Below, piece by piece: positions 6,337-27,122 of a stretch of 40,012 nucleotides of DNA (within the stretch, counting starts at the first letter, position 1; every line of letters starts with the position of its first letter). The notes under the pieces were generated by a model, which saw only the letters and a program-made list of their open reading frames with translations, was not told the DNA's origin and ran no database searches. Position numbers and translations under genes: made by a program. The stretch is taken from NCBI GenBank assembly GCA_030618605.1, contig JAUXDC010000005.1, positions 1 to 40,012 on the forward strand, written 5' to 3'. The DNA comes from Holophagae bacterium (GTDB lineage: Bacteria > Acidobacteriota > Thermoanaerobaculia > Thermoanaerobaculales > Sulfomarinibacteraceae).

Positions 6337-7956
6337 CTCCAGACGAGCCAGATCCTCCGGGCTCAAGGTGGCGGTTTCCACAAAACCATGGCGCCCAGAG
6401 GCTTCCATCCGAGCAATGGAGTCGAGGATTTGACCTGAAGAAGCTAGCGCGTTCCTCTCCTTGACCGACATGGTCGACAACCGGCCCGTACTGAGGATGT
6501 CATTCAACTCGTCCGGATCCTGAGCGAGCGAATAGAATTCCTCTTCTCCAGTATCCAGGTTTCGAATCAGCTTATAGTCACCCAATATGACGGCCCGGAG
6601 ATCAACCTCTCCAGATGACTTGAAGGTCATCGAAATCTTGGGCACCTCGCCGTCAAGGGTGTCACTGACCAGCTGCGGTAATGCAATTTTTCCACTGCTC
6701 TGTCCTACCGGTGGAAGGCCGAGAATCTCACGGATAGTCGCATTCATATCCACGTGGCTGATCGGCGCAGCGACCTCTGTGCCGGGGCTGATGAGACCAT
6801 CCGCCACCACAATCAGGGGGACACGAATCAGCGAGTCGTAGACCTGTTTCTTGTGTCCGAAAAGATTGTGTTGTCCCAGACCCTCTCCATGATCAGACGT
6901 CAGGACGACCAGTGAATGCTCCAACAGCCCTCTCTGCTTCAAGAGTTCCAAAAGCCGACCAATCTGGCGATCGACATACTCCACCTCAAGCGCATACCGC
7001 TGTCGCGAAACGGCATCATCAATTTCCTCGTCTGCGAAAAAACTCAAGCTCGCGGGAACCTCTTGACCCGCCTGGGTCTTGACGATCAACGTCGCGGGCA
7101 ACTGACACCGATTGAGACGCCGCGGCGGCATGCCCCTGGTTCCTTCCCACCCGCTCCCGAGAGCGACATCAACTCCGGAAGCCCGGACCTCAAGCTGCCT
7201 GAATCCAAGGTGTCCCTCAAAACCATCATCAAGAGGCTCGAAACTCACCTCGTTCAGACCCGATTTCAAAAGCAGGGGAAATTCACATCCCAGACCATCA
7301 ACCCGACACGAGCCCAAGCTCTCTCCATTGAGCTTCACTGAAAACTCGAAATAGTCCAATCCTGGTGGGCTATAGGGTTCGTGGGGATCTGAATAATGAG
7401 CAAAGAGAAAGACGGGTTTCTCAAGAGTATCCGGAAGAATGCCTTCGATCCTGTCGGTGACCTCTTCGGCCTTCAAAAACCACTGACTCTCAAAGTGATC
7501 TTCATAGACATCGAAGCCCTGAGACAGACCGAAACGGGCCTTGAGTACACCCAAACTGATAACTGCATAGCTTGAATAGCCCTCATTTTTCAGACTTTCC
7601 GCAAGGGTTTCGAAAGACTCCGGAAGTATGTCCGTGTTCTTTTCCACCCTGTGCCTGAAGGGCAGAACGCCGGTAAACATGGAGGAGTGACTTGGGCCGG
7701 TGACCGCAATATGCGAATAGGCACGGCGAAACAACGCACCTTGATCAGCAAGCGCGTCGATAACAGGTGTCTGTGCCATTTCGCCATAACATGACACGTG
7801 ATCTGCCCTGAGAGTATCGACAACGATCAGGATCAGATTCCGCCTGGGCCCCTTCTCCTCAACGACGGGCTTCCCGGAACACCCCCAGAAGAAAAACATC
7901 ACCACGACGAGAATGAAAAACCACATCGCGCAACTGGTACAGGATGAACCTCTCAC
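6316..7956 (-). CDS. Sulfatase / alkaline-phosphatase superfamily lipoprotein with internal beta-rich insertion (Thr at nucleophile position)
   Basis: NLILIVVDTLRADHVSCYGE, AVTGPSHSSMFTG, VVLTSDHGEGLGQH; lipobox-like FFWGC; C-terminal LEALGYTQ. Confidence 0.9.
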   Translation of the reverse strand: MRGSSCTSCAMWFFILVVVMFFFWGCSGKPVVEEKGPRRNLILIVVDTLRADHVSCYGEMAQTPVIDALADQGALFRRAYSHIAVTGPSHSSMFTGVLPFRHRVEKNTDILPESFETLAESLKNEGYSSYAVISLGVLKARFGLSQGFDVYEDHFESQWFLKAEEVTDRIEGILPDTLEKPVFLFAHYSDPHEPYSPPGLDYFEFSVKLNGESLGSCRVDGLGCEFPLLLKSGLNEVSFEPLDDGFEGHLGFRQLEVRASGVDVALGSGWEGTRGMPPRRLNRCQLPATLIVKTQAGQEVPASLSFFADEEIDDAVSRQRYALEVEYVDRQIGRLLELLKQRGLLEHSLVVLTSDHGEGLGQHNLFGHKKQVYDSLIRVPLIVVADGLISPGTEVAAPISHVDMNATIREILGLPPVGQSSGKIALPQLVSDTLDGEVPKISMTFKSSGEVDLRAVILGDYKLIRNLDTGEEEFYSLAQDPDELNDILSTGRLSTMSVKERNALASSGQILDSIARMEASGRHGFVETATLSPEDLARLEALGYTQ

Positions 7957-9518
7957 AGGGCGAGTCCTCTCAAACGGGCTGCGGCCAACCTCAAATCCCG
8001 TGCAACATCATCAATGTCCTCAAACCGCAATTCACAATCGGTCGCCAAACCCTCCATGATTTGTGCCGTTGATCGCAGCTCGCCGATGATTGAGGTTTCC
8101 ATTGAACCCACCGGCGCCGATGCGCCCGACTGCATCCCGGCCAGCTGACCGATGACCCCCAAAAGGGCGTTGTTGACTTCGGTCTGGTAGAGGCTCAGGT
8201 TACGGACTGAACGCAACGCCAGGCGACGGATCAGTTTCCCCAGACCACCAAGAGAGGCGTGAGCGTCTGAATCCGGACCACGGGCAATCAAAGCCCCAAT
8301 GTTGCCGATCAGCATATTCAGCTCGGCCATCTTCTCCTCAGAAATCCCCGACTGGTCCGACGTGACCTGAGCCCCGGCGATCGCAACCGGCGCCGGCAAA
8401 GACTGCCTCTGCTCAAGCTCGACACGGACGCGCTGAATCCTGTCAACGATAAAACGGGCCCGAACGGCAGGACTGTGAAAGGTCTCGACGTCACGCACGG
8501 CCCGACGCCCCCTTCTCAGCGCTTCGTCCTGATCCTCGTACACGCGACGCATTGCCCGGGCCGCAGCTTCCAGGTCCGGCTCCGCCCAGAGCGCGTCCGC
8601 CGGGTAGGGTTCGCTCCCCGGACCGATCTCAGTGGACTCGTAGGGAACGAGGAAGCTGTTGTTGTCATTCATGAAATCCAGGTTGCCCGAGTAGGCCGTT
8701 GCAATGACCGGTTTACCCAGCGCCATCGCCTCGGCCATCGTCAGCCCAAATCCTTCCGATCGGTGAAGGGAAACGTAGGCGTCACAGGCATTGATGAACG
8801 CCTTCTGGTCATCCGCAGGCAGATAGCCGTCACGGTACTCGATGTCAGGCCGGCCTGCTGCTGCCTCCCGAATACTCTCCGCCTGCTCTGCATGGCGTTC
8901 TCCGTTGATGGATTTTACGACCAGTCGAGGCCCCTCCCCTGAAGAAAAGGCCATCTTGAAGGCCTCGATCACCGCGATCGGGTTTTTGCGCGCAAAGAGG
9001 CTGTCCAGGTCGAAGCAGAACATGAAGAGGTAGTCCTCGGGCAAAGCGAGATCAACCCGGGTTCGGGGGGGTGGCTCGGGCGTTTCAATCGGAAGGGGAA
9101 AGGGCTGGACCGGTTTGCAGATTTTGCGCGCGATCGAACGGGCCGAGAAGGAACTGTTGGCCCAGACCTCGTCCAGGAAGTCGGCACTCTTCGCCATCCA
9201 GTCCGGAAACTCCTCCAACTCCCAGGCCCAAAGACCGATTGTGTAACGGTCTTTGAGACACGAATGCCCGAATCGGTCGAGAAAAAGAGGTACGCTGTCC
9301 GCATTGACGCCGATAATGTTGATGTCGTAATCGGGGTCTTTGCTTCCAAAATCGTCGAACTTCGACTCCTGCCGGCTGACGGTTTCGGTGAATGGCACAA
9401 CTGCGTAGTCAATGCCGCCTTCACGGAGTGCTGATACCAAAAGGCGAGTATGTTCTCCGACCCCACTCTCGGCATAAACATAACCGTAGACGTTGACTCC
9501 CGGTTTCAAATTTCCCAA
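7953..9518 (-). CDS. GT4-like glycosyltransferase with helical C-terminal tail
   Basis: GVNVYGYVYAESGVGEHTRLLVSAL and SLHRSEGFGLTMAEAMALGKPVIAT. 4-nt overlap with the sulfatase-like gene. Confidence 0.88.
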   Translation of the reverse strand: MGNLKPGVNVYGYVYAESGVGEHTRLLVSALREGGIDYAVVPFTETVSRQESKFDDFGSKDPDYDINIIGVNADSVPLFLDRFGHSCLKDRYTIGLWAWELEEFPDWMAKSADFLDEVWANSSFSARSIARKICKPVQPFPLPIETPEPPPRTRVDLALPEDYLFMFCFDLDSLFARKNPIAVIEAFKMAFSSGEGPRLVVKSINGERHAEQAESIREAAAGRPDIEYRDGYLPADDQKAFINACDAYVSLHRSEGFGLTMAEAMALGKPVIATAYSGNLDFMNDNNSFLVPYESTEIGPGSEPYPADALWAEPDLEAAARAMRRVYEDQDEALRRGRRAVRDVETFHSPAVRARFIVDRIQRVRVELEQRQSLPAPVAIAGAQVTSDQSGISEEKMAELNMLIGNIGALIARGPDSDAHASLGGLGKLIRRLALRSVRNLSLYQTEVNNALLGVIGQLAGMQSGASAPVGSMETSIIGELRSTAQIMEGLATDCELRFEDIDDVARDLRLAAARLRGLAL

Positions 9519-9565: not shown

Positions 9566-12256
9566 TCATCCAGGAGGCTGCGATCGCCGCGCAATCCAAG
9601 TGACATGATGTGACCACTGAAGGGCAACAGCCTGCAGGTCGAGTCGTTGAGGACGAGCGATGGTCCCCTGATCGACGACGGCAGTCATGGCTGCCACCGC
9701 CGGCGCCACCAGCGCCGCCGGATTCCCTGCGACATCGGCAGCATCGAAGAGCCCCGTCGGCCTGTCGATACCTTCCATACTCGACCGGCGGCGAGCGACG
9801 ACACCCTTCCCCAACGAATCGGCCAGTGCGAAGCACGAGTCAAAACGAGGCTCCGGATTGATCGATAACAATCCGTCGCTCGCAGCCACTACCGAGTTGC
9901 AAAGGCCGGCGCTCAAAGGTCTGCTGATCACACGGATCGGCAAGTGGTCGACCTCCTCCGCCAATGTTCCGGCGTCACGAGCCAGGAGACACAGGCCGAT
10001 ATCGGATCGACCCAATGCCACAAGCCTTCGAACACAGTCAATCAAGGCCGAAGTAACACGCTCTCCATCGTAGTCTCCGCCACTGACCATCGCCGCAAAC
10101 CAGAACACACCCTCACCGACGGAAATCTCCTCCAGTGCCCCTGGTTCCACCTCTTCCCCATGCCAGGCGGGCAAGAAAGGAAGATGGCGAACGGGAATCG
10201 ATACCCGGTCTTCCAGAATACGTTGGGCTGAAGTGGTTGGAACCCAGACCTCGTCAAGGCACTCCAGGAGATCTAAATGCACGGACTCAGGCGAGTCTGT
10301 CAGATAGCCGACCAACCCCCCACCCACTCTCGTGCCGAAAGGCAGTGAATTGATGACGGTTTCGTACCGAGCGGCCGCCAGGTCAAGAACCGTCACCGGG
10401 AAAGGGGCGCCATGCATGTGACGAATCTGGTCCGAGGTCATTAAATCAGGCAATTCGTGATCCAGGGCGACTGCAACGGTTGGCAATCCGGCCCGTTCGA
10501 TCACACGCGTCAAACCCGAAACGAGACTCCTCGCGCCCCGCTCGCCTTCAAAATACCCAACGATGTTGACTCCCGGAACGGCCAATGGCCGCGGATCACA
10601 CTGATTTCCCGGCCGAATGGGAGGCTTTCGGGCGGGACGCGGCACCGTGGCACGCTCGTCAACCAGTTTGGAATCATGACCCCGCCCATCGGACGAAACT
10701 CCCTTGAGCGCCAGCGCGAATCGACTCTTCATCGATAGAGACAGCCTGACGGGCCGCACCAAATCGGGATGAAGGCCGTGAAGGGGAGCTCCGTGGACGA
10801 CCATCCAGTAGGCAAACGCACTCCGATCACGAGTGAGGGGCTCCGGGTAGAGATCCCGGACCTCTGCCCGCATCCCATGGATCAGCAAGCCCAACCGAGT
10901 CACCAGGGCGTCACCGTCACCATCGTCTCCCATGGACTCATTGAGCCAGCCGGCGTGCTCGTTCGGGTTGCCGAGGTCAATGCCATCGAGGCGCTCCTGA
11001 TCATCGTTCGTATTCGAGTCGGTCCGGCTGTTCCAAAGGGTACGAAGTGGTCCGACAAAAGCCTCATGCATGTGTGCCTGGGCGGACCCCTCGTCCAGGA
11101 ACCAGTTGATGAATCGGGCAAGATCCTCGCCGAGGATTTTGGGGAAGACCTCACGAAGATCAGCCCGGTCCCGCCACAGGAAGAGCGCCGCCCGGTGCGT
11201 CACACCGTGGTCAAACCACAGTGGTTCAGTGAGCCAATCAAGATAGGAGTCGTCGCATGCGGGATCGAAGGGATCGGGCCACCTGAGTCCCTCCGGATCG
11301 ATTTCCTGAAGAGCCACCCGGACAAAACGTGGAATCGGAATGTCGGTATCCCGGAAATGATGGTAGACGTAGGGCAACCCCCTCATTTCATGGTGCCCGC
11401 TGTCTTCGACCAAGGTCGAATAGTGTTCGAAAAGGGGCCGTAACTCAGGGCGTGACCACAGGTCGAGCCGATCCTGATGCTTGCTGATGGCATCGATCTG
11501 TTTGGGATCGACACCACTGAAGTGGAAGAAACCGACCCTTTCCCCGTCGACCTCCCAGTGGTCCGACTCCCATTTTGGAAAACGGTGGGGAAGATTCCAG
11601 TAGGCGATGTTGTAGATCGGCTCTCGGACGATCGCAACTGATTCGAGGAAGGCCGGCGTGAAATCCATCCAGGACTGGTCAACGAACATCCCATTCGTCA
11701 GGTCGTTGATGCAGTAACGATGAAGCCGATCGCACCACCAGTCGAGAAAACCCTCGGTTCGCTCGTCGAGACGGAGACCGAGAAAACCCAGGTTGTAGAT
11801 GCCACACATGCCGATGACCCGCTCCGGCGGCCGGCAGACATTGTCGAGTGGTTGGGTCAAGTGGGGCGTCAGCACCGCAGAATGCTCGGACAGTGCATTT
11901 TCGAGCCCCGTCAGCCGGTCGTGAACCAGGATGTCAGGATCGAAATAGAACACCCGGTCAAGTCCAATGACATCACGCAAGTACTTGATCACGAACGGTT
12001 TTACCGCGGTGTTGAGTTCCAGGATGTCGTAGCGAAAGGCGAAGTTGCTGAATGCAGGAATATCGAGCTCATGCGCAAGGATGATCTCAAACGGGAAATC
12101 GTCATAGGGAACGCGATCATCCAGTGTGTCGACCAGACACACGTACACCGTCGCACCTGGGTGGTACTTAAGGTAGGACTCTGCAAAAACCCGGGTCATG
12201 CCGAGGTAGTTGTTTGAAGAAATCGTAAACACGTCGACCGGCGTCGATGTCGGCAT
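9566..12256 (-). CDS. Two-module glycosyltransferase: N-terminal GT-A-like nucleotide-sugar transferase plus C-terminal degenerate GT4-like module
   Basis: N-terminus FTISSNNYLGMTRVFAESYLKYHPGATVYVCLVD, DRVFYFDPDILV. C-terminal module starts VPGVNIVGYFEGERGARSLVSGL, parallel to the neighbouring GT4 start. Confidence 0.8.
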   Translation of the reverse strand: MPTSTPVDVFTISSNNYLGMTRVFAESYLKYHPGATVYVCLVDTLDDRVPYDDFPFEIILAHELDIPAFSNFAFRYDILELNTAVKPFVIKYLRDVIGLDRVFYFDPDILVHDRLTGLENALSEHSAVLTPHLTQPLDNVCRPPERVIGMCGIYNLGFLGLRLDERTEGFLDWWCDRLHRYCINDLTNGMFVDQSWMDFTPAFLESVAIVREPIYNIAYWNLPHRFPKWESDHWEVDGERVGFFHFSGVDPKQIDAISKHQDRLDLWSRPELRPLFEHYSTLVEDSGHHEMRGLPYVYHHFRDTDIPIPRFVRVALQEIDPEGLRWPDPFDPACDDSYLDWLTEPLWFDHGVTHRAALFLWRDRADLREVFPKILGEDLARFINWFLDEGSAQAHMHEAFVGPLRTLWNSRTDSNTNDDQERLDGIDLGNPNEHAGWLNESMGDDGDGDALVTRLGLLIHGMRAEVRDLYPEPLTRDRSAFAYWMVVHGAPLHGLHPDLVRPVRLSLSMKSRFALALKGVSSDGRGHDSKLVDERATVPRPARKPPIRPGNQCDPRPLAVPGVNIVGYFEGERGARSLVSGLTRVIERAGLPTVAVALDHELPDLMTSDQIRHMHGAPFPVTVLDLAAARYETVINSLPFGTRVGGGLVGYLTDSPESVHLDLLECLDEVWVPTTSAQRILEDRVSIPVRHLPFLPAWHGEEVEPGALEEISVGEGVFWFAAMVSGGDYDGERVTSALIDCVRRLVALGRSDIGLCLLARDAGTLAEEVDHLPIRVISRPLSAGLCNSVVAASDGLLSINPEPRFDSCFALADSLGKGVVARRRSSMEGIDRPTGLFDAADVAGNPAALVAPAVAAMTAVVDQGTIARPQRLDLQAVALQWSHHVTWIARRSQPPG

Positions 12257-12333: not shown

Positions 12334-12339
12334 TATAAT
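12334..12339 (+). promoter_or_regulatory. Putative -10 box for the coiled-coil/GT2/methyltransferase operon
   Basis: TATAAT upstream of an AGGAG SD at 12354-12358. Confidence 0.5.
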
Positions 12340-12365
12340 CGGCATGGCAGGCCAGGAGAAATACT

Positions 12366-13400
12366 ATTAACGACGACAAGGTTCAACTGCTTCTCGACCA
12401 ACTCGAAGCGCTTTCGTCACCGAGAGCGGCGGCGTTCGGCGTGCTCGGCCGGTTGATGTGGACCGTGCTGCGACCTTTGCGCCGTGTCCTCTGCGGCAAC
12501 CTCGCCGAAACGGCCGAGGCTCTCCATAGCTATGTTGCCGACGCTGAGCACGATCGGCTGGTTTTTTCCGACTCCCTCGATGCTGCCCGCAGAGACCTCG
12601 CCCAACTCGGCGCCCTTCAAGAGGATCGGACCATAAACACCCAGCGTCATTTGACCCTTCTGCAGGACGACTACGACAAAACCAAGCAACGCCTCGCCGA
12701 CATTGCGAACGCAACACAGCGAGACGCCGAGAACCTCGGCGGGCACATCGAGGACATTCAGGCAGACTATGACGCCTTCAAGCTTTCGATGACCGAGACC
12801 ATCACCGCCGTCGAGGAGGACGGCGCGGAATTCCGAACGCATCTCGGCAACATCCAGGCGGACAGCGACCTCCAGAAGAAATTTTTCGACACGATGGCGA
12901 CCGCTCTCCAAAAGGATTCCAAAACCCTCACCCAACACCTCGCCCGCATCCAAGAAGACGCGGAAAATTTGAGCCAACACCTCGCGAATATTCAGAAAGA
13001 TATCGACCTCCAAAAAGAAATCTCAAACGAAACAACCTCCACAATCCAAAGGGACGCACAGACCCTCCGCCAACACCTCGTCCAGATCCAAGAGGACCAT
13101 GACACCACCAAGGAAACGGCAGGTAACCAACTGAGAGCCCTCGAGGCCTTCAAATCCCAGTCCTCCTTGACGACCCAGCGCCTTGAGAAAGACGCCGGCG
13201 CCGTACTCGATCATATCGGGCGCATCCAATCTGACCATGACAGGGTCGCCTCCCTGGCCGGGCAAACCCGCGCGGACACCGATGAACTCCGGGCAGCCAT
13301 CGAACAACTCGGTCAGCTGGCCGCCGACCTCCACCAGGACCTTACGCATGTGGCCGAGGCAATCTCCCAATTGCACGGCGCCGACCCGGACCTGTCGTGA
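12366..13400 (+). CDS. Coiled-coil repeat protein with N-terminal amphipathic segment (proposed ATT start at 12366; ORF track begins at GTG 12441)
   Basis: Repeats of the form xQxDxxxLxxHLxxIQxDxDxxK. Reading frame open upstream to the stop at 12336. AGGAGA SD 6 nt before ATT. Confidence 0.75.
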   Translation: MNDDKVQLLLDQLEALSSPRAAAFGVLGRLMWTVLRPLRRVLCGNLAETAEALHSYVADAEHDRLVFSDSLDAARRDLAQLGALQEDRTINTQRHLTLLQDDYDKTKQRLADIANATQRDAENLGGHIEDIQADYDAFKLSMTETITAVEEDGAEFRTHLGNIQADSDLQKKFFDTMATALQKDSKTLTQHLARIQEDAENLSQHLANIQKDIDLQKEISNETTSTIQRDAQTLRQHLVQIQEDHDTTKETAGNQLRALEAFKSQSSLTTQRLEKDAGAVLDHIGRIQSDHDRVASLAGQTRADTDELRAAIEQLGQLAADLHQDLTHVAEAISQLHGADPDLS

Positions 13401-14410
13401 AATTCACCGTTGTCGTTGTAACGTGGAACGGCGCTCAATGGATCGACGACTGCCTTCAATCGGTCCTCGATCAGGAAGGCGACCCGAACATCATCCTGGT
13501 CGACAACGGAAGTTCTGACGACACGGTCGAAAGGGCCAACAGAATCCTTCAGGACAACGGCTCAAAGGCCGGGTCGAGCACCATTCTTCGCCTCAAACGC
13601 AACCACGGATTTCCAACCGGTGCGAACCGGGGCATGGCAGCGGCACTCAACGCCGACCCCGACCTCATCGGCATCCTTCTGCTCAACCAGGACGCTCACC
13701 TTGAACCCGGCGCTCTCCAGGCCTTTTCCCAATTCCTGGAAGAAAACCCCAAGGCAGGCGCCCTTGGAGCCAGAATCCTCTATCTCGATCGTGCCTCGTT
13801 GCAACACGCGGGCGGATACCTCGAACATCCACGAATGGTCGGTCTCCACTTCGGTCACCATGAACCTGTCGATGAGAAAAAATTCAACGAGCCGCGCGAG
13901 GTCGACTACGTGACTGGAGCAGCGATGATGCTGAGGGCCGAATGCCTTCGAGATCTCGGGCTGTTCGAGGAGCTGTTCTCGCCGGGATACTACGAGGATG
14001 TCGAGCTGTGTCAGCGTTTAATTCACAATGGATGGTCGATTTGGTACGTACCCGAGGCGACGGTGATCCATGCGGAATCTTCGTCCTTTTCCAACAGGGA
14101 TCTGCGCCTTCGCGTAAGCCACCGCAACCGGCTGATCTTTGCCCTCCCACACTTTCTCGAGGCAGCTGCCGCCGAGAAATTTCTGGATGCCGAGTCCCAC
14201 TTTCTCATCAATGACGCACACCACGACGAAGTTCGTGCTATTTCCGGTGCTGCCCTCGATCTGCTTACTCTCCTCCCGGCTGCGCTCAACGCACGTATCG
14301 GTGACGGCCATGGCGACACCGAAGGCGAAGAACGGGCCCGGCAGGTTCTCGTCTCCCTTCGCGACGTCTGCCGAGACATCCTGATTCCTCCGCCGACCAG
14401 GAGCGAATAA
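13397..14410 (+). CDS. Family-2 glycosyltransferase
   Basis: MKFTVVVVTWNGAQWIDDCLQSVLDQ, ILVDNGSSDDT, LLLNQDAHLEPGAL, GYYEDVELCQRL. 4-nt overlap with preceding gene. Confidence 0.93.
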   Translation: MKFTVVVVTWNGAQWIDDCLQSVLDQEGDPNIILVDNGSSDDTVERANRILQDNGSKAGSSTILRLKRNHGFPTGANRGMAAALNADPDLIGILLLNQDAHLEPGALQAFSQFLEENPKAGALGARILYLDRASLQHAGGYLEHPRMVGLHFGHHEPVDEKKFNEPREVDYVTGAAMMLRAECLRDLGLFEELFSPGYYEDVELCQRLIHNGWSIWYVPEATVIHAESSSFSNRDLRLRVSHRNRLIFALPHFLEAAAAEKFLDAESHFLINDAHHDEVRAISGAALDLLTLLPAALNARIGDGHGDTEGEERARQVLVSLRDVCRDILIPPPTRSE

Positions 14411-14415
14411 ATCGA

Positions 14416-16134
14416 ATGCCCATGTCCACAGATCCGCTGACCGGCATCCGCATCCTCGACGCAACGCTGAACTACTCGGACACCTCCGAAGACAGAGTCC
14501 TGGCGACACTCGAAAAGGCCACAGACCGATCCTCCGAATCCGACGAACTCGCCGACGGGATAGTTGACTGGCCGACTCGATATCACTTTTCTCGCATGCG
14601 GGGGCACCTCATCCGGCCCCTTGGCCTCAAACCCGGCATCGAGGTCCTCGATGTTGGTTGCGGTACCGGGGCGGTCACCAGGGCCCTCGGGGAACGCGGG
14701 GCGCGGGTACTCGGTATCGAAGGCGCCCTCCCGAGAGCCCGGGCCGCCGCCCTGAGGTGTGCCGACCTCGAACATGTCGAGATCGTCTGCGGCGACATTT
14801 CACACCTTGAAACCGACAAGACCTTTGACCTCGTCTGTCTGGTTGGAGTTCTCGAGTACGCGGCCACCTCGGTGGGTGGCAAGCACGGCCCCGAGTCGCT
14901 GCTCAAGCACCTCAGGAAGCTCGTCAAGCCGGGCGGCGCCCTCCTCGTCGCTATCGAAAACCAGATCGGACTCAAGTATCTGTTGGGCTACCGGGAGGAC
15001 CACGTTGCGCTGCCGTGGGCAGGACTCGAGGACTATGCCGAGGGCTTTGGCGCCCGGACCTGGTCGCGGCGGCAACTCGGCATCCTCCTTGGCACAGCGG
15101 GCTTTGAAGAGCAACGCTGGCTTTTCCCTTATCCGGACTACAAGCTGCCATCGGTCATCCTCTCCGAAGGCGCTTTTGAACTGGACAACGCTCCGGAGCT
15201 GGTCGACCAGATCGTGCGCCTCCCTGTTCAGGATTTCGCCTTTTCTCGCACGATTCTGGCTGATGATCGTCGCGTTCATAATGTTTTTCTCAATGCGGGC
15301 CTCGGACCCGATGTCGCCAATTCCTTTCTCGTTCTCGCAAGCTCCGACAATCACACCCTTGATGAGTTGGTTGACCCCATGTCGCTGGCCTGGATATTGA
15401 GCGGTGAACGCCGGGCTCAATGGAAGAGGACACAGGTGGTGGTTGAGCGAGACAACGGCCTTCGAGTAATTGCACGCCCCAACTCGGTTGACCAGAATGT
15501 CCGGAAAGACCGTTGGCTCACTCAGTCCCCGGTGCGTGATGACCCCTGGCGCCGGGGACCGACACTGGAGCAGATTGCCCTCGAATCCTGCCACACCCGT
15601 GACGAACAAGGCCTGGCCGCGGCTCTGAAACACTGGACATCGTGCCTCAACGAGGCGCTGGTGCAAGCATCGGAGCATGCCACGAGCCATCCCTATTCCC
15701 CATCCCCGGGCACGCCGGCCCTTCCGGACGACATGCTGGACGTCAGTCTGTCGAACTTTGTGCTCTCGGATGAGGGGGTCGTTTTTGTTGATCGTGAGTG
15801 GCGGGTGGACGGCGGAGTCGATCCCGGACTGGCCGGCCTGCGAGCTCTGTGGTTTTTCTCACTCGACCTGATGAACGGCGGCGCCCGTCATCCGTGGCCG
15901 GATACCCTGACGGTCGACGACATTTGCCGCGAGATGGCGGCGATGTGCGGGTTCCCGGCCCAACTCGACGACCTCAATAGAATGTACTGCGCTGAGGCCG
16001 AACTCCAATCATTGGTGATCGGCTTCGACGTGGAACGCGTGACACGGGATCTCCGCGGTTCAGGACAATTGACCCTCGTAAATCCCAACGCGTCCTGCCC
16101 CATCCGCTGGACCCATCTGCACGAATTCCCCTAG
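14416..16134 (+). CDS. SAM-dependent methyltransferase fused to a possible kinase-like domain
   Basis: EVLDVGCGTGAVTRALGERGARVLGIE (SAM-binding motif). C-terminal half has LDVSLSNFVLSDEGVVFVDREW, resembling a catalytic D..N plus DxEW pattern. Confidence 0.85.
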   Translation: MPMSTDPLTGIRILDATLNYSDTSEDRVLATLEKATDRSSESDELADGIVDWPTRYHFSRMRGHLIRPLGLKPGIEVLDVGCGTGAVTRALGERGARVLGIEGALPRARAAALRCADLEHVEIVCGDISHLETDKTFDLVCLVGVLEYAATSVGGKHGPESLLKHLRKLVKPGGALLVAIENQIGLKYLLGYREDHVALPWAGLEDYAEGFGARTWSRRQLGILLGTAGFEEQRWLFPYPDYKLPSVILSEGAFELDNAPELVDQIVRLPVQDFAFSRTILADDRRVHNVFLNAGLGPDVANSFLVLASSDNHTLDELVDPMSLAWILSGERRAQWKRTQVVVERDNGLRVIARPNSVDQNVRKDRWLTQSPVRDDPWRRGPTLEQIALESCHTRDEQGLAAALKHWTSCLNEALVQASEHATSHPYSPSPGTPALPDDMLDVSLSNFVLSDEGVVFVDREWRVDGGVDPGLAGLRALWFFSLDLMNGGARHPWPDTLTVDDICREMAAMCGFPAQLDDLNRMYCAEAELQSLVIGFDVERVTRDLRGSGQLTLVNPNASCPIRWTHLHEFP

Positions 16135-17786
16135 CCATCTCCCTTGTGAGAGAATCGGGCTAGATCCTTGATCTTCCGCAGGATGGCCCATGTTTTCCAC
16201 ATGGTCGATCTGTGAATGTCGTCCAGTTGTGCCCCAATCTGCTGGAGCTCGACCTCCATGTGGAGATTGTTCTGCCGCAAGGCCTCACCCTCCTGGAGTG
16301 CGACTTTCAGCGCCCCCTCCATCGCCCAGAACGACAGAGGATTCGACCCTTCCCCGTTGAGATCAGGGGCTTTCTCGGCCCCGGAGACCCACCGGCGCAA
16401 CGGCCCAGTCGTCGCATCGATACTGAAGTGCTCGCGTGCCATACGCCAGGCACGCTCACCAATCTCCGGCAGGGCAGCTCGCTGCTCAAAGACCTCCAGC
16501 AAGATCGAGGTCAAGGAGGCAGGATCTCCCGGCCGATAGGCGTAGGCCACACCCCAATCGACACAGTCTTGAACCAGCTCGCTTTGGGAGGTGGCCACAA
16601 AAGGCAGTCTTGCCTCCATCCATGCAATCATCCTGCCGCTGGAACCCAATTCGCGCTCGTAAAGGACTTTTTCAGTGACGAGACCGAGGTCGGCACGTTC
16701 AACCCACCAGGCAAGTTCTCCGGTGCTCAGACTCCCCAGAAGGTGGATACGGTCAGAAAAGACTGAGGCCTCAGCCAGATTCCGAAACCGATCCCAGCTG
16801 AGCTCGTCATGGCCGGCGATCGCGCCTCCGGTCACTACCATGTGGAGGTCCTCGATCTTCTCCATGGCCTTTTCGATGCCGGCCACAAGAGTCTCGACAT
16901 CACACCATGTATTAAACCCTCCGCTCCACAGGATGACGAAGGCATCCTCGGCATTGCTCCACGCGCGATCGCTTTTGTCGGACGCAATTGCCGGTGTCTC
17001 AATGCCCGTTGCGGCACACGGCATAACGTGGACCATCTCGCGCCCGGCCGTTTCCCGATTGAGGCGCCCCAAAACACCCAACTGACCGATGGCAACCTCT
17101 CGCTGCCGACTTGAAACCACCGAGAAAACGTCACCGTTCTCCACCAGGGTCGCCACCAGATTCCTGTAGGCGGTCAGCTGATCTCCCTCCGAACACCTGG
17201 CCGCCCGGGCCTGGGCCTCGGCCATCGGGTCTCCAAAAAGATCGACCCACACCGGCCTGCCACCTGCCACCTCGACACATCGGCCCGAGGGCCGGGCAGA
17301 AGCGCCCACCAGGCACGCAGGGTCAAAGGCCTTGATCAGATCCGGAATGATGTCACCCGTATGGAAATCGTCTGAGGACATTCTGACGATCATCATCGAA
17401 TCGGTTTTTTCGACTTCGATGCCGGGATCGGCACCGTCATACCCGCCCGCCATTCTCTCGCACAAGACGAGCGGCCGAATGCCGTCAGCCACCAACCCCT
17501 GAACGAACTGCCACGTTCGGCCACCAGGTGCGTAGTTCATTCTGGCGTGTTCAAAGGGCAGGGGAGCGGTTCCGAGAAGAGCGACAGCCCGACCCGAACC
17601 CACTGTTTCCCGCCACCGCCGCACCGCAGTCAAGGCATCCAAAGAACTCTCCTCACCATCCGGTATTGACCAAGCAACATTATTATTGTCAGAGAAAACA
17701 CCAACACCGTCAACAGCACTCTCACTTGGGCATGCACTGAAACGACAACCGCGACGAACACGGCTGATCCTCACCCACTGGCTCAT
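16131..17786 (-). CDS. Glycosyltransferase (GT-B/GT4-like) with C-terminal coiled coil
   Basis: VILWSGGFNTWCDVETLVAGIEKAMEKIEDLHMVVTGG, HLLGSLSTGELAWWVERADLGL. C-terminus ALRQNNLHMEVELQQIGAQLDDIHRS. Confidence 0.75.
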   Translation of the reverse strand: MSQWVRISRVRRGCRFSACPSESAVDGVGVFSDNNNVAWSIPDGEESSLDALTAVRRWRETVGSGRAVALLGTAPLPFEHARMNYAPGGRTWQFVQGLVADGIRPLVLCERMAGGYDGADPGIEVEKTDSMMIVRMSSDDFHTGDIIPDLIKAFDPACLVGASARPSGRCVEVAGGRPVWVDLFGDPMAEAQARAARCSEGDQLTAYRNLVATLVENGDVFSVVSSRQREVAIGQLGVLGRLNRETAGREMVHVMPCAATGIETPAIASDKSDRAWSNAEDAFVILWSGGFNTWCDVETLVAGIEKAMEKIEDLHMVVTGGAIAGHDELSWDRFRNLAEASVFSDRIHLLGSLSTGELAWWVERADLGLVTEKVLYERELGSSGRMIAWMEARLPFVATSQSELVQDCVDWGVAYAYRPGDPASLTSILLEVFEQRAALPEIGERAWRMAREHFSIDATTGPLRRWVSGAEKAPDLNGEGSNPLSFWAMEGALKVALQEGEALRQNNLHMEVELQQIGAQLDDIHRSTMWKTWAILRKIKDLARFSHKGDG

Positions 17787-18975: not shown

Positions 18976-20772
18976 GTGTTGAAATCGGCCTTTCATCGTC
19001 TGCTCGAAAAGCTCCCCCTTCTGACGGGAGGCTATCGGGCTGTCCAATATCGGACCCGACTGGCCGGCGGGAAGTCCGCCGGCGAAATTCGATACCACAC
19101 CATCACCGGTGGCCCTTCCCAGGAATGGGGCGTCACCCTGTGCTCTTCCCTCGAACTCGAGGAGATCCACCGGTGGACGATTGCTCAGACACTGAAGAGC
19201 CTCAAGATCACCGATCAGGCGAGTCCGGATTGTGGCTGGTTTCTGGCGCCCGGGGCGGTTCTTCCCGCGGTACATCCGGGATGGATGGAGTCTGCGCTGC
19301 TGGTGGCCTCGACGGAGAGTGTCGACACCGTGACCCTGACCGAGAGAGTCAGCGGTGCACCTCAAGACTTGCCCGCCTCTGCCGATGATTTACTGGACAC
19401 CCCCTGGCGTTCCTTGACCCTCTTCTCAAGCAAGAGCTACCGGTGGGACGCCGAGACCGACACCGTTCAACCCCGCAAGAACACACTGACGGCCAAGATT
19501 ATCGGTCCGAACGGCATCGGTTCTGCGCCTCCCCGCACATCGGCCGAGTCAGCCCTACGCCGAGGTTCCTATCTCGGCAACCGCCCTCTTCCCGCCCTGC
19601 TGAAAATCGGTCTCGCCCATCGGCTCCCGGCTGTGAGAACCGACGGCAAAGAGTCTCGTCCGGGTGTCCTGGTCACGGCACCATTTCTCGCCCGCGGCGG
19701 TGCGGAACATACGCTCGTCGAGACACTGACGGTCCTGCAGTCCACCTGTCGCATGGCCTTCGCGACCCTGGCGCCCCACCGAGAAGAGCTGGATGACCGC
19801 CGAAGCGATTTCGAACACTTGAGCCCGCACCTCTTCAGCCTTGGCGACTGGGTTCACCCAGACGCGATGCTGCCGATGTTGCTCCACCTGATCGACCACC
19901 TGAATATCGATGTCCTCTACAACGCCAACGGCACGACTCTCTTTTATGACTTCGCCCCCCGGCTCAAGGCGGCTCGCCCGAACCTGCACATCATTGACCA
20001 CCTCTACGACCACCGCGTCGGCTATATCGAACGTTATCGGGACCCCAAACTTCTCCAGTCTATCGACGCCTGCATCGCCGAAAACCATCCGATTGCAGAG
20101 GTTCTGACGTCCGAGTACAACTGGCCCGCCGACCGCGTTCCGGTCATCTGGTCCTGCGGCAGACCGCACCACAACCTCCCGCCCGAGGGAGCCAGGGACA
20201 CGATCCGCCGTGAGCTACGGGACGCACTGGGATACGCCGATGACGATGTCGTCTTCCTGACGGCCGCCCGCATGCACGAACAAAAACGCCCGTTGGACCT
20301 CGTGAGTCTGGCCGAGGCTGTTGTGGCCACTCCCAACATCCACTTCCTGATCGTCGGAGGCGGCCCGATGGAGGAGGCCGTCGACCACACAATCTCCGAA
20401 GCTGAGACCACGCAAATACGCCGACTACCTTTCAGGGCGGACATCCCGGAGTTGATTACGGCCTCCGATGTGGGCCTGCTGGTCTCGGACTTCGAGGGTC
20501 TGCCGGTCTTCCTTTTGGAATGCCTCCAACTGGGTCGCCCCTTCCTGGGAACCGATGTCGGCGACCTGGGCCGGGTCCTCAGGGAGACCGGCGCCGGCTT
20601 GGTCGTCGAAACACCCGGAGATATCCAGGCTCTGGCCGAGGCCGTCCGCAATCTGGCCGACAGGACCGTGCGCCAAGATTTCGGCGCCAAGGCCCTGACG
20701 GCGGGTGGGCGTTTCTCGCCAGACCACTGCGCTCGGGAATACGGAAAAGTGCTCTTCGGTGATCGATCATGA
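18976..20772 (+). CDS. GT4-like glycosyltransferase (paralogue 1 of a tandem pair)
   Basis: VLVTAPFLARGGAEHTLVETL, VVFLTAARMHEQKRPLDLV, LVSDFEGLPVFLLECLQLGRPFLGTDVG. Confidence 0.9.
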   Translation: MLKSAFHRLLEKLPLLTGGYRAVQYRTRLAGGKSAGEIRYHTITGGPSQEWGVTLCSSLELEEIHRWTIAQTLKSLKITDQASPDCGWFLAPGAVLPAVHPGWMESALLVASTESVDTVTLTERVSGAPQDLPASADDLLDTPWRSLTLFSSKSYRWDAETDTVQPRKNTLTAKIIGPNGIGSAPPRTSAESALRRGSYLGNRPLPALLKIGLAHRLPAVRTDGKESRPGVLVTAPFLARGGAEHTLVETLTVLQSTCRMAFATLAPHREELDDRRSDFEHLSPHLFSLGDWVHPDAMLPMLLHLIDHLNIDVLYNANGTTLFYDFAPRLKAARPNLHIIDHLYDHRVGYIERYRDPKLLQSIDACIAENHPIAEVLTSEYNWPADRVPVIWSCGRPHHNLPPEGARDTIRRELRDALGYADDDVVFLTAARMHEQKRPLDLVSLAEAVVATPNIHFLIVGGGPMEEAVDHTISEAETTQIRRLPFRADIPELITASDVGLLVSDFEGLPVFLLECLQLGRPFLGTDVGDLGRVLRETGAGLVVETPGDIQALAEAVRNLADRTVRQDFGAKALTAGGRFSPDHCAREYGKVLFGDRS

Positions 20773-22553
20773 CTCCATTGGGACTCCGCCGTACAGGCCG
20801 CGCAATTCGCCGTGAGCTCTCCATTCTCAAATACCGTGTGCTCCATATCCTGGGCACACGAGCTCCGGCCAAGGTGGTCCCGATGTCCGAACAAGGGCCG
20901 GACCTTCCGTTGAGCCATCCGATGGTCGGCATCGTCGCACCGTCCGGCATTGACACTGAGCGCCTGACAGAAATCCTTGCACGCCAGACCGAGACATCCT
21001 GGACCCTGGAACCCGGCGCAATCGACACCGCACCGTGGCTCTGGTGCCCCGGTCCAGGAATCGAAGATCTGGAGACCTGCCATCTCGAAAGCCTGGTCTT
21101 GGCAGCGACCGCACTCGACCTCACTATGACCATCGGCGGTTGGGCCTTTCCTGAAGGGGCCATCGGCCGCCCCGACAACGTGGACCCGGGAAACCTGGCC
21201 CTGATGCGTCGCCCCGGCACTCGTGCCGTGAGTGAGCCGATTCAAGGCGCCCTCATCCCCCAGATCACCCAGGAGACGCCTGCGATTCCAATCGCTCCAC
21301 CAAGTCACCAAAGCGGTCCCTTCGTCCTCAACCACAAGGGCGGTCCGGGCGCCGTCATTCGGTTGCCAGTTCACGATGTCCACGCCCGTCTGGCGTCTCT
21401 TCCGACCGAGGCAGGACCTCCAGCCGTGCTCTTTGTAGCGCCCTACCTCGCAATCGGCGGCGCCGAAAACCTGCTCTTAGACCTGATCGAAGGCCTGACG
21501 CCCGAGCATCGCATACTGGTCGTCACCCTGGACCCGCACCGAAAGGAGTTGGGCCAAACTGTCGATCGGTGTCGCCGCCTGACGCCTCACGTCTACACCC
21601 TGGGTGACTGGTTGCCTCGGGAAGCCCGCATTGACACCCTCTGCCACCTCATCAGGCGATGGCAGGTCGAAGTTCTGGTCTCCTGGAACGGCACCGTTGA
21701 CTTCTACGACCACGCACTGGAGATGAAACAACAATTTCCGGACCTCCGAATCCTGGCCCAGCTCTACAACCATGAAGGCGGTTGGGTCGACCGGACGACC
21801 TCCACACTGCTGACGGAGCTCGATGGGCACCTGGCCGTCAACGACCGCATCAGCCGGGCCCTGATCGACAGGGGCGCACCTGAGAATCGGGTTCACACGG
21901 TGCACCACGGAGTTCGCATTCCAAAAGCAGTTTCCGAGGCGGACCGGATCCAAAGACGCCGGACTCGACGGGCAGAACTCGGACTCCCCGAAGAAGCCGT
22001 TGTCGTCGGGACATTTATACGACTTCACCGTCAAAAACGACCCTTGGACATTGTTCGGCTGGCCCGGAAACTCAGGTCGTCCAGGCTCCACTTCCTCCTC
22101 GTCGGCGGCGGCCCGGAAACACGCGCCGTCGAGGCCGAAATCCTGCGTGACTCCCCGGAAAACCTCCTTCGGCTTCCCCTCCAGACCGAAACCCTCCATC
22201 TCTACGATGCCCTGGATATCTGTCTCTTGACCTCGGAATATGAAGGTCTCCCGGTCTTCTTGTTGGACGGACTGGCCCGGGAAATTCCGTGTGTCGCGAC
22301 CGCAGTCGGTGAAATCCCCGAACTCCTGCATGACGGCGGAGGCATCCTGGTTGACCGTCCCGGGGACATCGATGCCCTCGCCGACGCCCTCCTGAGCCTC
22401 GAAGACCCGGAGCAACGGCAATCCCAAGGACAGCGCGGCCGCCGGACCGTCGAGGACCGGTTCGGCCTGGATACCTACGTCAAGAGCTATCAGAGGCTGA
22501 TGTTCCCATCCCATCACGGCCGGAAACAAGAGGAGCTGATACTGGATACTTGA
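20769..22553 (+). CDS. GT4-like glycosyltransferase (paralogue 2 of a tandem pair)
   Basis: VLFVAPYLAIGGAENLLLDLIEGL, VVVGTFIRLHRQKRPLDIV, LTSEYEGLPVFLLDGLAREIPCVATAVGEIPEL. 4-nt overlap with paralogue 1. Confidence 0.92.
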   Translation: MTPLGLRRTGRAIRRELSILKYRVLHILGTRAPAKVVPMSEQGPDLPLSHPMVGIVAPSGIDTERLTEILARQTETSWTLEPGAIDTAPWLWCPGPGIEDLETCHLESLVLAATALDLTMTIGGWAFPEGAIGRPDNVDPGNLALMRRPGTRAVSEPIQGALIPQITQETPAIPIAPPSHQSGPFVLNHKGGPGAVIRLPVHDVHARLASLPTEAGPPAVLFVAPYLAIGGAENLLLDLIEGLTPEHRILVVTLDPHRKELGQTVDRCRRLTPHVYTLGDWLPREARIDTLCHLIRRWQVEVLVSWNGTVDFYDHALEMKQQFPDLRILAQLYNHEGGWVDRTTSTLLTELDGHLAVNDRISRALIDRGAPENRVHTVHHGVRIPKAVSEADRIQRRRTRRAELGLPEEAVVVGTFIRLHRQKRPLDIVRLARKLRSSRLHFLLVGGGPETRAVEAEILRDSPENLLRLPLQTETLHLYDALDICLLTSEYEGLPVFLLDGLAREIPCVATAVGEIPELLHDGGGILVDRPGDIDALADALLSLEDPEQRQSQGQRGRRTVEDRFGLDTYVKSYQRLMFPSHHGRKQEELILDT

Positions 22554-22726: not shown

Positions 22727-23701
22727 ATGACCCCCACACCACGCTACTCCGTTTTAATTCCGGCCTACAACCATGCCGAGTTTGTTGAAGAGGCGGTCAC
22801 CAGTGCACTCGAAGACGGAGGCCAACAAGTTGAGGTAATCATCGTCGATGACGGATCGAATGATGATACCCCCGCCGTGCTGCAATCTCTCGAAACCGAC
22901 GATCGGATCCGGGTCCATACCCAGGAGAATCAAGGCGCACACGCAGCACTCAATCGCCTCCTCAGCCTGGCCCGCGGTGAGTTCGTCTTCATTCTCAACT
23001 CCGACGATACCTTCGAATCCGGACGTCTTGAACGTCTGGCAACCGCACTTGAGGAACACCCAGGCACCGCCGTTGCCTGTTCAACCCTGCGTATCATCGA
23101 CGACCAGGGCCGGCAGATCGGCATCAAGAATGCCTGGCGGGATCTGGAGCCTTGGCCCGTGCCCCATCCGCAGCCACACCTGGCAGACCTCGACGACCCC
23201 ACGCTGGCCCTCCTGCAGTCGAACTGGGCGGCAACTACCTCCAATATGGCCTTTCGTCGTTACCTGGTGACCAAAAACAACCTGCAGTTCAATCCACTTC
23301 GCTACACCCACGACTGGGACTTCCTGTTGGCCGCATCGGCCATCGGGGAGATCGCCCTGGTCGAAGAACCCTTGGTGCGTTACCGGGTTCACGGCGCCAA
23401 CACCATTCGGGAGAACGACGAGCAAGCTCAGGCAGTCATGCACTTCGAGATCCTCTGGACCGTCGCCCGACATGCAGCACACACCTTGGCCCGAGCCTCC
23501 ACAAGGGGATTTGACCCCGCTGACCTCCGGGAACGCATGCTGCGGTCCCTGCCCTCCTTCGGGCACGAAGACCTCCTCTTCCAGCTCCTCACGCTGCGGG
23601 GGACCGGTGACTCGCCTCCTGCAAGTTACGACGCTCTCCTGCACCCCGAGCACCCGCTTCGCCGGGCAGCCCTGGCGGCATTGGCCGGCGAAAAAACCTG
23701 A
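22727..23701 (+). CDS. Family-2 glycosyltransferase
   Basis: YSVLIPAYNHAEFVEEAVTSAL, VIIVDDGSNDDTPAVL, FVFILNSDDTFE. Confidence 0.94.
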   Translation: MTPTPRYSVLIPAYNHAEFVEEAVTSALEDGGQQVEVIIVDDGSNDDTPAVLQSLETDDRIRVHTQENQGAHAALNRLLSLARGEFVFILNSDDTFESGRLERLATALEEHPGTAVACSTLRIIDDQGRQIGIKNAWRDLEPWPVPHPQPHLADLDDPTLALLQSNWAATTSNMAFRRYLVTKNNLQFNPLRYTHDWDFLLAASAIGEIALVEEPLVRYRVHGANTIRENDEQAQAVMHFEILWTVARHAAHTLARASTRGFDPADLRERMLRSLPSFGHEDLLFQLLTLRGTGDSPPASYDALLHPEHPLRRAALAALAGEKT

Positions 23702-24878: not shown

Positions 24879-27122
24879 ATGTCGGGCCTGGGATCAGATA
24901 TGCCGAGACGTTTTCCTTCACTGACCTTCTTGCTTTTGTTGCTGCCGATCGGCCAGGCGGCCGCTGACCTGCCGTCCCAATACGATCTCCGCGACGTCGA
25001 CGGCCAAAACCTGGTGACTTCGGTCAAGAGCCAACAAGGCGGTACCTGCTGGACCTTCGGCGCGATGGCGGCGATGGAGGGCAATTTGCTGATGACCGGT
25101 GCCTGGGAAACTGCCGGAGAGAGCGGCGAACCGAACCTGGCCGAGTACCACCTGGATTGGTGGAACGGTTTCAACCAGCACAATAACGACGACATCGACC
25201 CGCCGTCGGGGAGCGGACTGGAAGTTCACCAGGGCGGTGACTACAGGGTGACCTCGGCCTATTTGGGGAGGGGCGAGGGCGCGGCGAGAAACATCGACGG
25301 CCAGTCCTACAACACACCGCCGGAGCGCTACCGCGACGACTACCACTTTTTTGTGCCACGCCACATTGAGTGGTATGTCGCCGGAGACAACCTCGAGACG
25401 ATTGATCAGATCAAACAGGCCGTGATCGATTACGGGGTCATAGGTACCTGTATGTGCTACGACGGTGCCTTCATCAACGGCTCCTTCATCCACTATCAAC
25501 CCACCTCGTCCACTCTCGATCCCAACCATGCGATCGCTATCGTTGGCTGGGACGACGATAAAGCGGTTTCAGGCGCCCCGGGACCAGGCGCGTGGCTCTG
25601 CAAGAACAGCTGGGGAGAGGGCTGGGGCCTCGGCGGATATTTCTGGATTTCCTACTGGGACAAACACGCAGGGAAACACCCCGAGATGGGCGCCATCGCC
25701 TTCCGTGACGTCGGCCCCCCGGATTGGGACACGACCTACTCTCACGACTACCACGGATGGCGGGATACCTATACGGATGCCGGACGGGCCTTCAGCGCCT
25801 TCACCGCAAACACCGATGAGGTTCTCGGGGCAGTCGGTATCATCACCACCGAAGACGACACCAGCTTCACCGTCAGGGTGTGGGACCGTTACGAGGGGGA
25901 TGAACTGCTCGACATCCTGGGTTCGACCACCGGAACTTTTGCCCACACCGGCCTGCACACAGTCGATTTGCCCGTCCCAATTTCTCTGGTGCAGGGTGAT
26001 GACTTCTTTGTCGAGCTTGAGGTCTTCAGCGGGGGCCTGGCCTTCGACCGGACCTCGGACGTACCGGTCCTTCTGGGGGCCTCGACCAGAGCCATCGTCG
26101 AGAGCAGCGCCGCACCCGGCGAATCTTTCGTTCAACCTGGATCTCAGTGGATTGATTTCACAACCGTCGAAGAGACCGGCAACATCTGCATCAGGGCCCT
26201 GACCTCGATACCGGGCCTGAGAGTCCAACAGTCCGAAAACCTGGTGGCTTCCGGGCCGGTCGGCGGACCATTCGAACCCTCGACCATCCAGTACACCCTG
26301 GAAAACCGTGACCCAACCACCATCACCTACGATGTCACGCTGTATCAGCCCACCGCCTGGATCACTCTGAGCGGGCCGGTCTCAGGATCGCTCGATCCGG
26401 GATCAACGGCTGTCATTACGGTCGAAGTCAACGGCGCCGCCAATGCGCTGGAGGCCGGAGCCCATGTCTCAAACCTTCTGTTCACCAACACGACCAGTCA
26501 CTTCGGCGACACCAGCCGAATGATCGTCGTCGCGGTTGGTGACCCCGAGATCCGGCACTCCGAAACACTTGACACCGATCCCGGCTGGGCGACCGAGGGG
26601 CAGTGGGCCTGGGGACAGCCCGCGGGTCTCGGCGGCGCTCACGGTGGGCCCGATCCAACCGGAGGTTTCTCGGGACCTGCAGTCTACGGCTACAACCTCG
26701 GAGGTGACTACCCCGACAATTTGTCCGAGACCCATTTGACCAGTACGGCGTTTGATTGTCGGGGACTGTACGGCATTCACCTGGACTTCCAGAGGTGGCT
26801 CGGGGTGGAACAGCCTGATTATGACCACGCCTCGGTTCGCGTCAGTACCGACGGAACGAATTGGACCACCGTGTGGGAGAACGATGCCGAGGTCACGGAC
26901 ACGACCTGGACCCCTATCGATCTGAACATTTCCAGTGTGGCCGACAACGCAGAGACGCTCTATCTTCGCTGGACCATGGGCACGACTGACGCCGCATATA
27001 CCTACTGCGGCTGGAACATTGACGACATCGAAATCCTCGGTGTCTCCGAAATTGATCGCGGCCTGTTCTCGGACGGCTTCGAAAACGGCGACACGTCCGG
27101 GTGGTCGTTTACGACACCGTAG
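24879..27122 (+). CDS. Secreted papain-family (C1A) cysteine peptidase with lectin-like and C-terminal domains
   Basis: Signal FLLLLLPIGQAAA. YDLRDVDGQNLVTSVKSQQGGTCWTFG, DPNHAIAIVGWDDD, LCKNSWGEGWGLGGYFWISY. C-terminal [20 protein letters not shown]. Confidence 0.9.
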   Translation: MSGLGSDMPRRFPSLTFLLLLLPIGQAAADLPSQYDLRDVDGQNLVTSVKSQQGGTCWTFGAMAAMEGNLLMTGAWETAGESGEPNLAEYHLDWWNGFNQHNNDDIDPPSGSGLEVHQGGDYRVTSAYLGRGEGAARNIDGQSYNTPPERYRDDYHFFVPRHIEWYVAGDNLETIDQIKQAVIDYGVIGTCMCYDGAFINGSFIHYQPTSSTLDPNHAIAIVGWDDDKAVSGAPGPGAWLCKNSWGEGWGLGGYFWISYWDKHAGKHPEMGAIAFRDVGPPDWDTTYSHDYHGWRDTYTDAGRAFSAFTANTDEVLGAVGIITTEDDTSFTVRVWDRYEGDELLDILGSTTGTFAHTGLHTVDLPVPISLVQGDDFFVELEVFSGGLAFDRTSDVPVLLGASTRAIVESSAAPGESFVQPGSQWIDFTTVEETGNICIRALTSIPGLRVQQSENLVASGPVGGPFEPSTIQYTLENRDPTTITYDVTLYQPTAWITLSGPVSGSLDPGSTAVITVEVNGAANALEAGAHVSNLLFTNTTSHFGDTSRMIVVAVGDPEIRHSETLDTDPGWATEGQWAWGQPAGLGGAHGGPDPTGGFSGPAVYGYNLGGDYPDNLSETHLTSTAFDCRGLYGIHLDFQRWLGVEQPDYDHASVRVSTDGTNWTTVWENDAEVTDTTWTPIDLNISSVADNAETLYLRWTMGTTDAAYTYCGWNIDDIEILGVSEIDRGLFSDGFENGDTSGWSFTTP

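Follow-up and report, generated by a model that had tools for sequence, protein, structure and literature searches.

A separate coiled-coil gene near an O7-type chain terminator gene in an Acidobacteriota genome: a candidate length ruler acting in trans

The gene triplet and its coiled-coil protein

We analysed a 40,012-nucleotide stretch of contig JAUXDC010000005.1 (the window, meaning this stretch at its full length) from a metagenome-assembled genome (MAG) of a Holophagae bacterium, 3.8 Mb in 396 contigs. Positions 12366-16134 of its + strand hold three genes, encoding a coiled-coil protein (CC), a glycosyltransferase of family 2 (GT2) and a protein with a methyltransferase half and a kinase-like half (MTK). 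An earlier note, made from the sequence alone, had described three same-strand genes with a 4-nt overlap between CC and GT2 and a 5-nt gap between GT2 and MTK; the coordinates of the open reading frames (ORFs) agree, and in this reading of the window the genes are tightly coupled.

12366..13400, +, CC: separate coiled-coil protein of 344 aa with a probable ATT start; candidate trans-acting ruler
13397..14410, +, GT2 glycosyltransferase of 337 aa (Pfam PF13641, E 5e-19; PF00535, E 3e-18)
14416..16134, +, MTK: 572 aa, assigned as an O7-type methyltransferase/kinase-like chain terminator without a coiled coil of its own

The reading frames of the triplet are intact and conserved in two species, that of the window and its sister species G003, which rules out an artefact. 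MTK is 89% and GT2 86% identical between them, and the ratio of nonsynonymous to synonymous substitution (dN/dS) is 0.19 for MTK, 0.20 for GT2 and about 0.40 for CC. With an orthologue in G003 and this ratio, CC is a genuine gene, and its higher value relative to its neighbours is expected of a spacer under looser constraint. GT2 belongs to a generic family, and no close relative was found outside G003. The earlier note had also looked to co-conservation of the triplet in related genomes. This did not hold beyond the sister species: a search of 20 family genomes found CC in the window's and in G003, with one weak partial match in G010 besides, and elsewhere the coil is fused to MTK. Gene frames of the relatives were read from tblastn matches, as longest-ORF calls masked some genes under high-GC antisense frames.

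CC is a tandem-repeat coiled coil, as the note had claimed. Compared with itself, the sequence scores highest when shifted by 46, 32 and 78 residues (0.41, 0.38 and 0.28 per position), above the best of 200 shuffles (-0.11). Its hydrophobic period is 3.54 residues with a power of 208, where none of 500 shuffles exceeded 106, a periodicity typical of a heptad/hendecad coiled coil; by eye, too, the 32-residue units are recognisable. In G003 the units measure 32, 32, 32, 32 and 46 residues, a net change of 18 residues relative to the window, although MTK is so similar in both species. An AlphaFold model of CC from the single sequence (pTM 0.41) is informative solely on helicity, and anti-phage libraries returned generic coiled-coil and methyltransferase matches alone.

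12720..13187, +, coiled-coil repeat region of CC (residues 119-274), units of 32, 32, 14, 32 and 46 residues
12435..12503, +, predicted amphipathic, positively charged helix (about residues 24-46), possible N-terminal membrane anchor of the rod
12354..12358, +, AGGAG Shine-Dalgarno sequence, 7 nt before the ATT, identical in G003
12334..12339, +, TATAAT, possible -10 element upstream of CC, conserved in G003

In the window and in G003 alike, no stop interrupts the CC frame as far back as ATT 12366, and the frame is conserved to that point. Its first ATG, GTG or TTG in the window, GTG 12441, reads GTT in G003. Because the open frame and the AGGAG are conserved in both species and GTG 12441 is not, the rare start codon ATT 12366 likely begins CC; a later start, GTG in the window and ATG in G003, is a conceivable alternative. 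The TATAAT is accompanied by no consensus -35 element, and a promoter scan had no entry for it. Near the N-terminus, residues 25-42 have a hydrophobic moment of 1.96 and a charge of +4, and this helix may possibly anchor the protein in a membrane.

The two domains of MTK

The features of MTK are as follows.

14416..15351, +, methyltransferase domain, MTK residues 1-312 (Pfam Methyltransf_11, E 2.5e-15)
15352..16083, +, putative APH/choline-kinase-like domain, MTK residues 313-556, from model topology, conserved residues and a weak profile match
15736..15801, +, catalytic-loop motif LDVSLSNFVLSDEGVVFVDREW, MTK residues 441-462
16084..16131, +, low-confidence C-terminal tail, MTK residues 557-572, where relatives enter the coiled coil; possible docking peptide

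The GT2 and methyltransferase calls of the earlier note were recovered by Pfam, with the methyltransferase match covering MTK residues 65-231. In a fold search, residues 15-312 match methyltransferases with Z up to 16.4, among them CgnL (7pd7) at Z 15.7; structure searches with whole MTK were filled by this half, and the fold matches inform on it alone. The AlphaFold model of MTK, built with 25 sequences, is a confident two-domain fold (pLDDT 89, pTM 0.91), with residues 556-572 under pLDDT 50.

The second half had been proposed to be kinase-like, and both conservation and predicted topology support this. Across 34 diverse relatives, Asp442, Asn447 and Glu461 are invariant and Asp459 is nearly so. 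Past residue 312, the model runs through three strands, two short strands, two helices and a loop with D442 and N447, then a hairpin, D459-x-E461-W462 and further helices, an order resembling the kinase fold without helix alphaC. A profile of this half aligned choline kinase exactly at the catalytic loop, weakly (E 0.066), and this is the sole biologically sensible match to PDB sequences; at E up to 10 the profile matched 6 PDB sequences, none of them a WbdD chain. Pfam and NCBIfam gave no named kinase family above cut-off for the domain, while single relatives weakly matched LanL, thiamine kinase and Bud32 in NCBIfam. When profiles were compared with those of APH proteins from related genomes, the top alignment lay at the catalytic loop without reaching significance, and a methyltransferase decoy scored higher. 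We consider the kinase assignment, from these alignments and the model, to be good, short of proof. A survey of 396 genomes sampled from the phylum found the kinase profile in 5, a patchy distribution.

The arrangement of MTK resembles that of ORF6 of Klebsiella pneumoniae O7, in which an N-terminal methyltransferase and an APH/AmiN-like kinase are followed by a coiled coil and two C-terminal GT2 modules (PMC11231755). ORF6-O7 adds first a phosphate and then a methyl group to the end of the glycan, an activity abolished by the D441A exchange (JBC 2024, on K. pneumoniae O4 and O7, PMC11231755); its kinase was unannotated and was called unlike that of WbdD in sequence and structure (PMC11231755). 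The head of MTK has the same order, a methyltransferase and then an unannotated APH-like kinase, and CgnL, which it matches, is the closest methyltransferase named in that paper. The link to ORF6-O7 runs through L035, an O7-like plasmid protein of 1457 aa that lies after an ABC permease and ATPase; its single chain contains a methyltransferase, the kinase motif, a coiled coil and also GT2 sequence. L035 has Y28, Y66, G91, G93, E112 and Y158 at exactly the ORF6-O7 numbers, and it is 33-35% identical to the MTK head with the kinase motifs aligned. MTK residues Y20, Y56, G81, G83, E102 and Y148 fall in the columns of these six residues of the O7 S-adenosylmethionine site, and Asp442 probably corresponds to Asp441 of ORF6-O7. 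By sequence, MTK is thus a relative of the O7 terminator ORF6-N and not of the WbdD kinase. It differs in that head, carbohydrate-binding module, coil and polymerase form one polypeptide in O7 ORF6, whereas in the window coil and GT2 are separate and no such module was noted; while an O7-type terminator has its coil within its own polypeptide, MTK is coil-less and the coil is a gene of its own. The column of the N-lobe Lys also differs, being Ala in the window.

The earlier note had proposed a split ruler system like WbdD, the methyltransferase and kinase terminator of Escherichia coli O9a, whose coiled coil is a proven ruler and whose rod carries an amphipathic membrane helix at its distal end (PMC3482155). 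By analogy, the window's proteins may work in a similar way, with terminator, coiled coil and amphipathic membrane helix all represented. However, WbdD has a eukaryotic-type kinase with DFG and trimerises through its own coil, whereas MTK appears to carry a kinase of another family with DxEW in place of DFG; and the WbdD ruler acts in cis with a C-terminal membrane helix, whereas the rod of the window would act in trans from a predicted N-terminal one. Membership of MTK in the WbdD family was rejected, there being no sequence match, with Ala354 at the Lys column and DxEW rather than DFG. What stands of the proposal is the kinase-like half, the terminator family and the coil as a separate polypeptide in the same operon; in sequence, O7 ORF6 takes the place of WbdD.

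The note had seen no clear N-lobe Lys, and the alignment explains this: at the beta3 position the window and G003 both have Ala354, the relatives L037-L040 have T, A, S and A, and many other members have K or R. Since this Lys is absent, phosphorylation by MTK is less certain than termination. The kinase-like domain could be inactive in this clade, with MTK only methylating the terminal sugar like O8/O5-type WbdD, with or without a CC ruler; E. coli O8 chains, the same as those of K. pneumoniae O5, have methyl-only ends (PMC11231755). Against this, the invariant Asp442, Asn447 and Glu461 and the nearly invariant Asp459 suggest conserved Mg/ATP chemistry or at least binding, and another basic residue could replace the Lys. 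We hold a methyl-only cap to be a possibility of some weight, though a doubtful one; it concerns the chemistry and is compatible with a ruler acting in trans.

As a separate observation, the Bacillota relatives L081, L088, L112, L113, L115 and L117 have a fuller kinase N-lobe, with a VxK strand and an alphaC-like stretch, and several of them carry a non-coil C-terminal region instead of a coil.

Fused relatives and the coil missing from MTK

MTK terminates at residue 572 without a coil, exactly where the coil of its relatives starts. In the nearest relatives, L037, L038, L039 and L040 from the same family of genomes (40-46% identical) and L052, MTK is 39-46% identical to that of the window and continues into a C-terminal coiled coil of about 70-190 residues, ending in L037-L040 in an amphipathic tail such as RHPLVRFYRRLRWWLPQ; L038 and L040 lie in a syntenic glycosyltransferase locus. 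Compared with these fused coils, the coil of the window is longer, unrelated, built of repeats, apparently of opposite polarity and encoded by its own gene. Only in the window and G003 does MTK stop just short of the coil, and there the operon also supplies a coiled coil of 344 residues as a gene of its own.

In the tree, the window and G003 branch as a pair within a clade of strong support (100/98), the six remaining rows of which are labelled coil-bearing. L053 and the short-coil rows L055, L080 and L096 were entered as coil-bearing; the label of L053 is doubtful, and its later inspection gave no convincing coil. As the window and G003 are nested among coil-bearing relatives, the coil-less MTK is the derived state.

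Within the genus, G001 has a complete fused MTK-coil gene at the syntenic locus, and G002 has the start of an MTK, 86% identical, running to the contig end. In both, MTK adjoins a GT2-GT4 fusion, whereas in the window and G003 CC, GT2, MTK and GT4 are four genes. GT2 and GT4 being separate, both fusions of the locus are undone in the window. An N-terminal GT2 domain is likewise carried by the GT4 gene beside MTK in L040 (7869-10433), L038 (7141-9717) and L044 (1945-4497).

CC is not simply the severed end of a fused gene, because no sequence similarity was found between CC and the fused coils of the relatives and because the predicted membrane-type helix lies at the C-terminus of the fused rods and at the N-terminus of CC. 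CC has the look of an independent rod that the operon acquired. The family accepts splits at another point too, as in G044 (L042, 7408-10208, -), where methyltransferase and kinase-coil are two genes with a GTGA overlap. This split shares with the window the family and a natural gene boundary, but there kinase and coil stay together; the kinase part of L042 has an intact VxK strand and an alphaC-like stretch.

Between G001 and the window, flanking genes share 64-84% identity and MTK only 41%, and CC-GT2-MTK looks block-exchanged relative to G001. This pattern, together with an exporter located elsewhere, would suit an explanation in which CC has an unrelated function and owes its place among these genes to chance or to a horizontally transferred gene cassette, and the glycan's ruler has been lost. 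We judge that improbable: all three genes are intact under purifying selection in both species, by the ratios given above, and they overlap or nearly do so.

A candidate ruler acting in trans

The best reading, which we think somewhat better than even, is an O7-type chain terminator with a ruler acting in trans. MTK would cap the non-reducing end of a lipid-linked cell-surface glycan and so halt its growth, with a methyl-phosphate as in O7 or, here, methyl-phosphate or methyl only. The N-terminal amphipathic helix of CC would lie on the inner membrane, close to the glycosyltransferases that polymerise the chain, and its coil would project as a rod, about 43 nm long if about 290 residues form one continuous helix. 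If the C-terminal end of CC holds MTK, chains would be capped only once long enough to reach it; in this way a separate protein acting in trans would set the chain length, and gain or loss of repeat units could alter it. In this scheme we infer CC-MTK binding, membrane attachment and ruler function, as well as kinase activity and the identity of the sugar. The more specific version, a two-component ruler in which an N-anchored, detachable rod of 32-residue repeats holds the O7-type terminator in trans and length evolves by whole repeats, is a tentative proposal to which we give a little less than an even chance.

Alternatively, CC could be anchored in the membrane to scaffold GT2 together with the locus's other glycosyltransferases in polymerase assembly, with MTK terminating chains without length control by CC. 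CC does directly precede GT2 with the 4-nt overlap, short coil or amphipathic tails end other sequences of the window too (GT4b, for example), and two coil-less relatives of MTK, L053 and L071, stand in Wzm-Wzt loci without a neighbouring coil. However, the coil of the closest relatives belongs to MTK and not to a GT2, MTK halts at the very point where that coil starts, and the tree surrounds it with coil-bearing relatives. A scaffold seems unlikely to us, though less so than an unrelated CC.

Several observations weigh against a ruler in trans. The split form occurs solely in two sister MAG species, effectively one evolutionary instance, and CC lacks detectable similarity to the fused coils. 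In the Wzm-Wzt-MTK loci L053 (2364-4094) and L071 (4112-6004), MTK has no convincing coil and no coil gene is in view; a coil-less MTK thus needs no separate coil per se, and the coil may be dispensable in some systems. Ala354 and the helix alphaC missing from the model suggest a kinase that may be weak or dead. Finally, no exporter gene lies beside the operon.

On the side of this reading, the window's genome (G000) has a Wzm/Wzt-like exporter pair, though one unlinked to the window, at L165 1837-3793 (-) on contig C293. Its ATPase is 399 aa long with a C-terminal extension, and no Wzt_C domain match was found in the genome. Also in favour, a Wzt-type ABC ATPase motif is present in 45 of 78 related loci, most often directly ahead of the MTK homologue, and the window's genome encodes LpxC, which suggests that the organism probably makes lipid A.

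The terminators described in PMC11231755 contain the ruler within the enzyme that caps the chain, and ruler length therefore cannot be altered without touching the enzyme. What is likely new here, within the known scheme of polymerase/terminator glycan assembly, is an O7-type terminator whose ruler would be on a separate polypeptide. If a trans-acting ruler is correct, it would be enough for terminator and ruler to be held to each other, and sister species have fused counterparts at this locus for comparison. One could then vary the length of the rod, its dose and the activity of the terminator each on its own, and test the ruler idea with a detachable part. The range of O7-type termination would also extend beyond the groups that PMC11231755 names, to an uncultivated lineage that encodes lipid A.

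Around the triplet lie GT4 genes at 7953-9518, 16131-17786, 18976-20772 and 20769-22553, a further GT2 gene at 22727-23701 and two sulfatase-family genes. Upstream, 9566-12256 (-) encodes an 896-aa protein with no Pfam or NCBIfam match, whose N-terminal half is 32% identical to a glycosyltransferase adjoining the MTK homologue of a Citrobacter plasmid. Near the polysaccharide genes, 24879-27122 (+) encodes a papain-family (C1) peptidase with a lectin-like domain.

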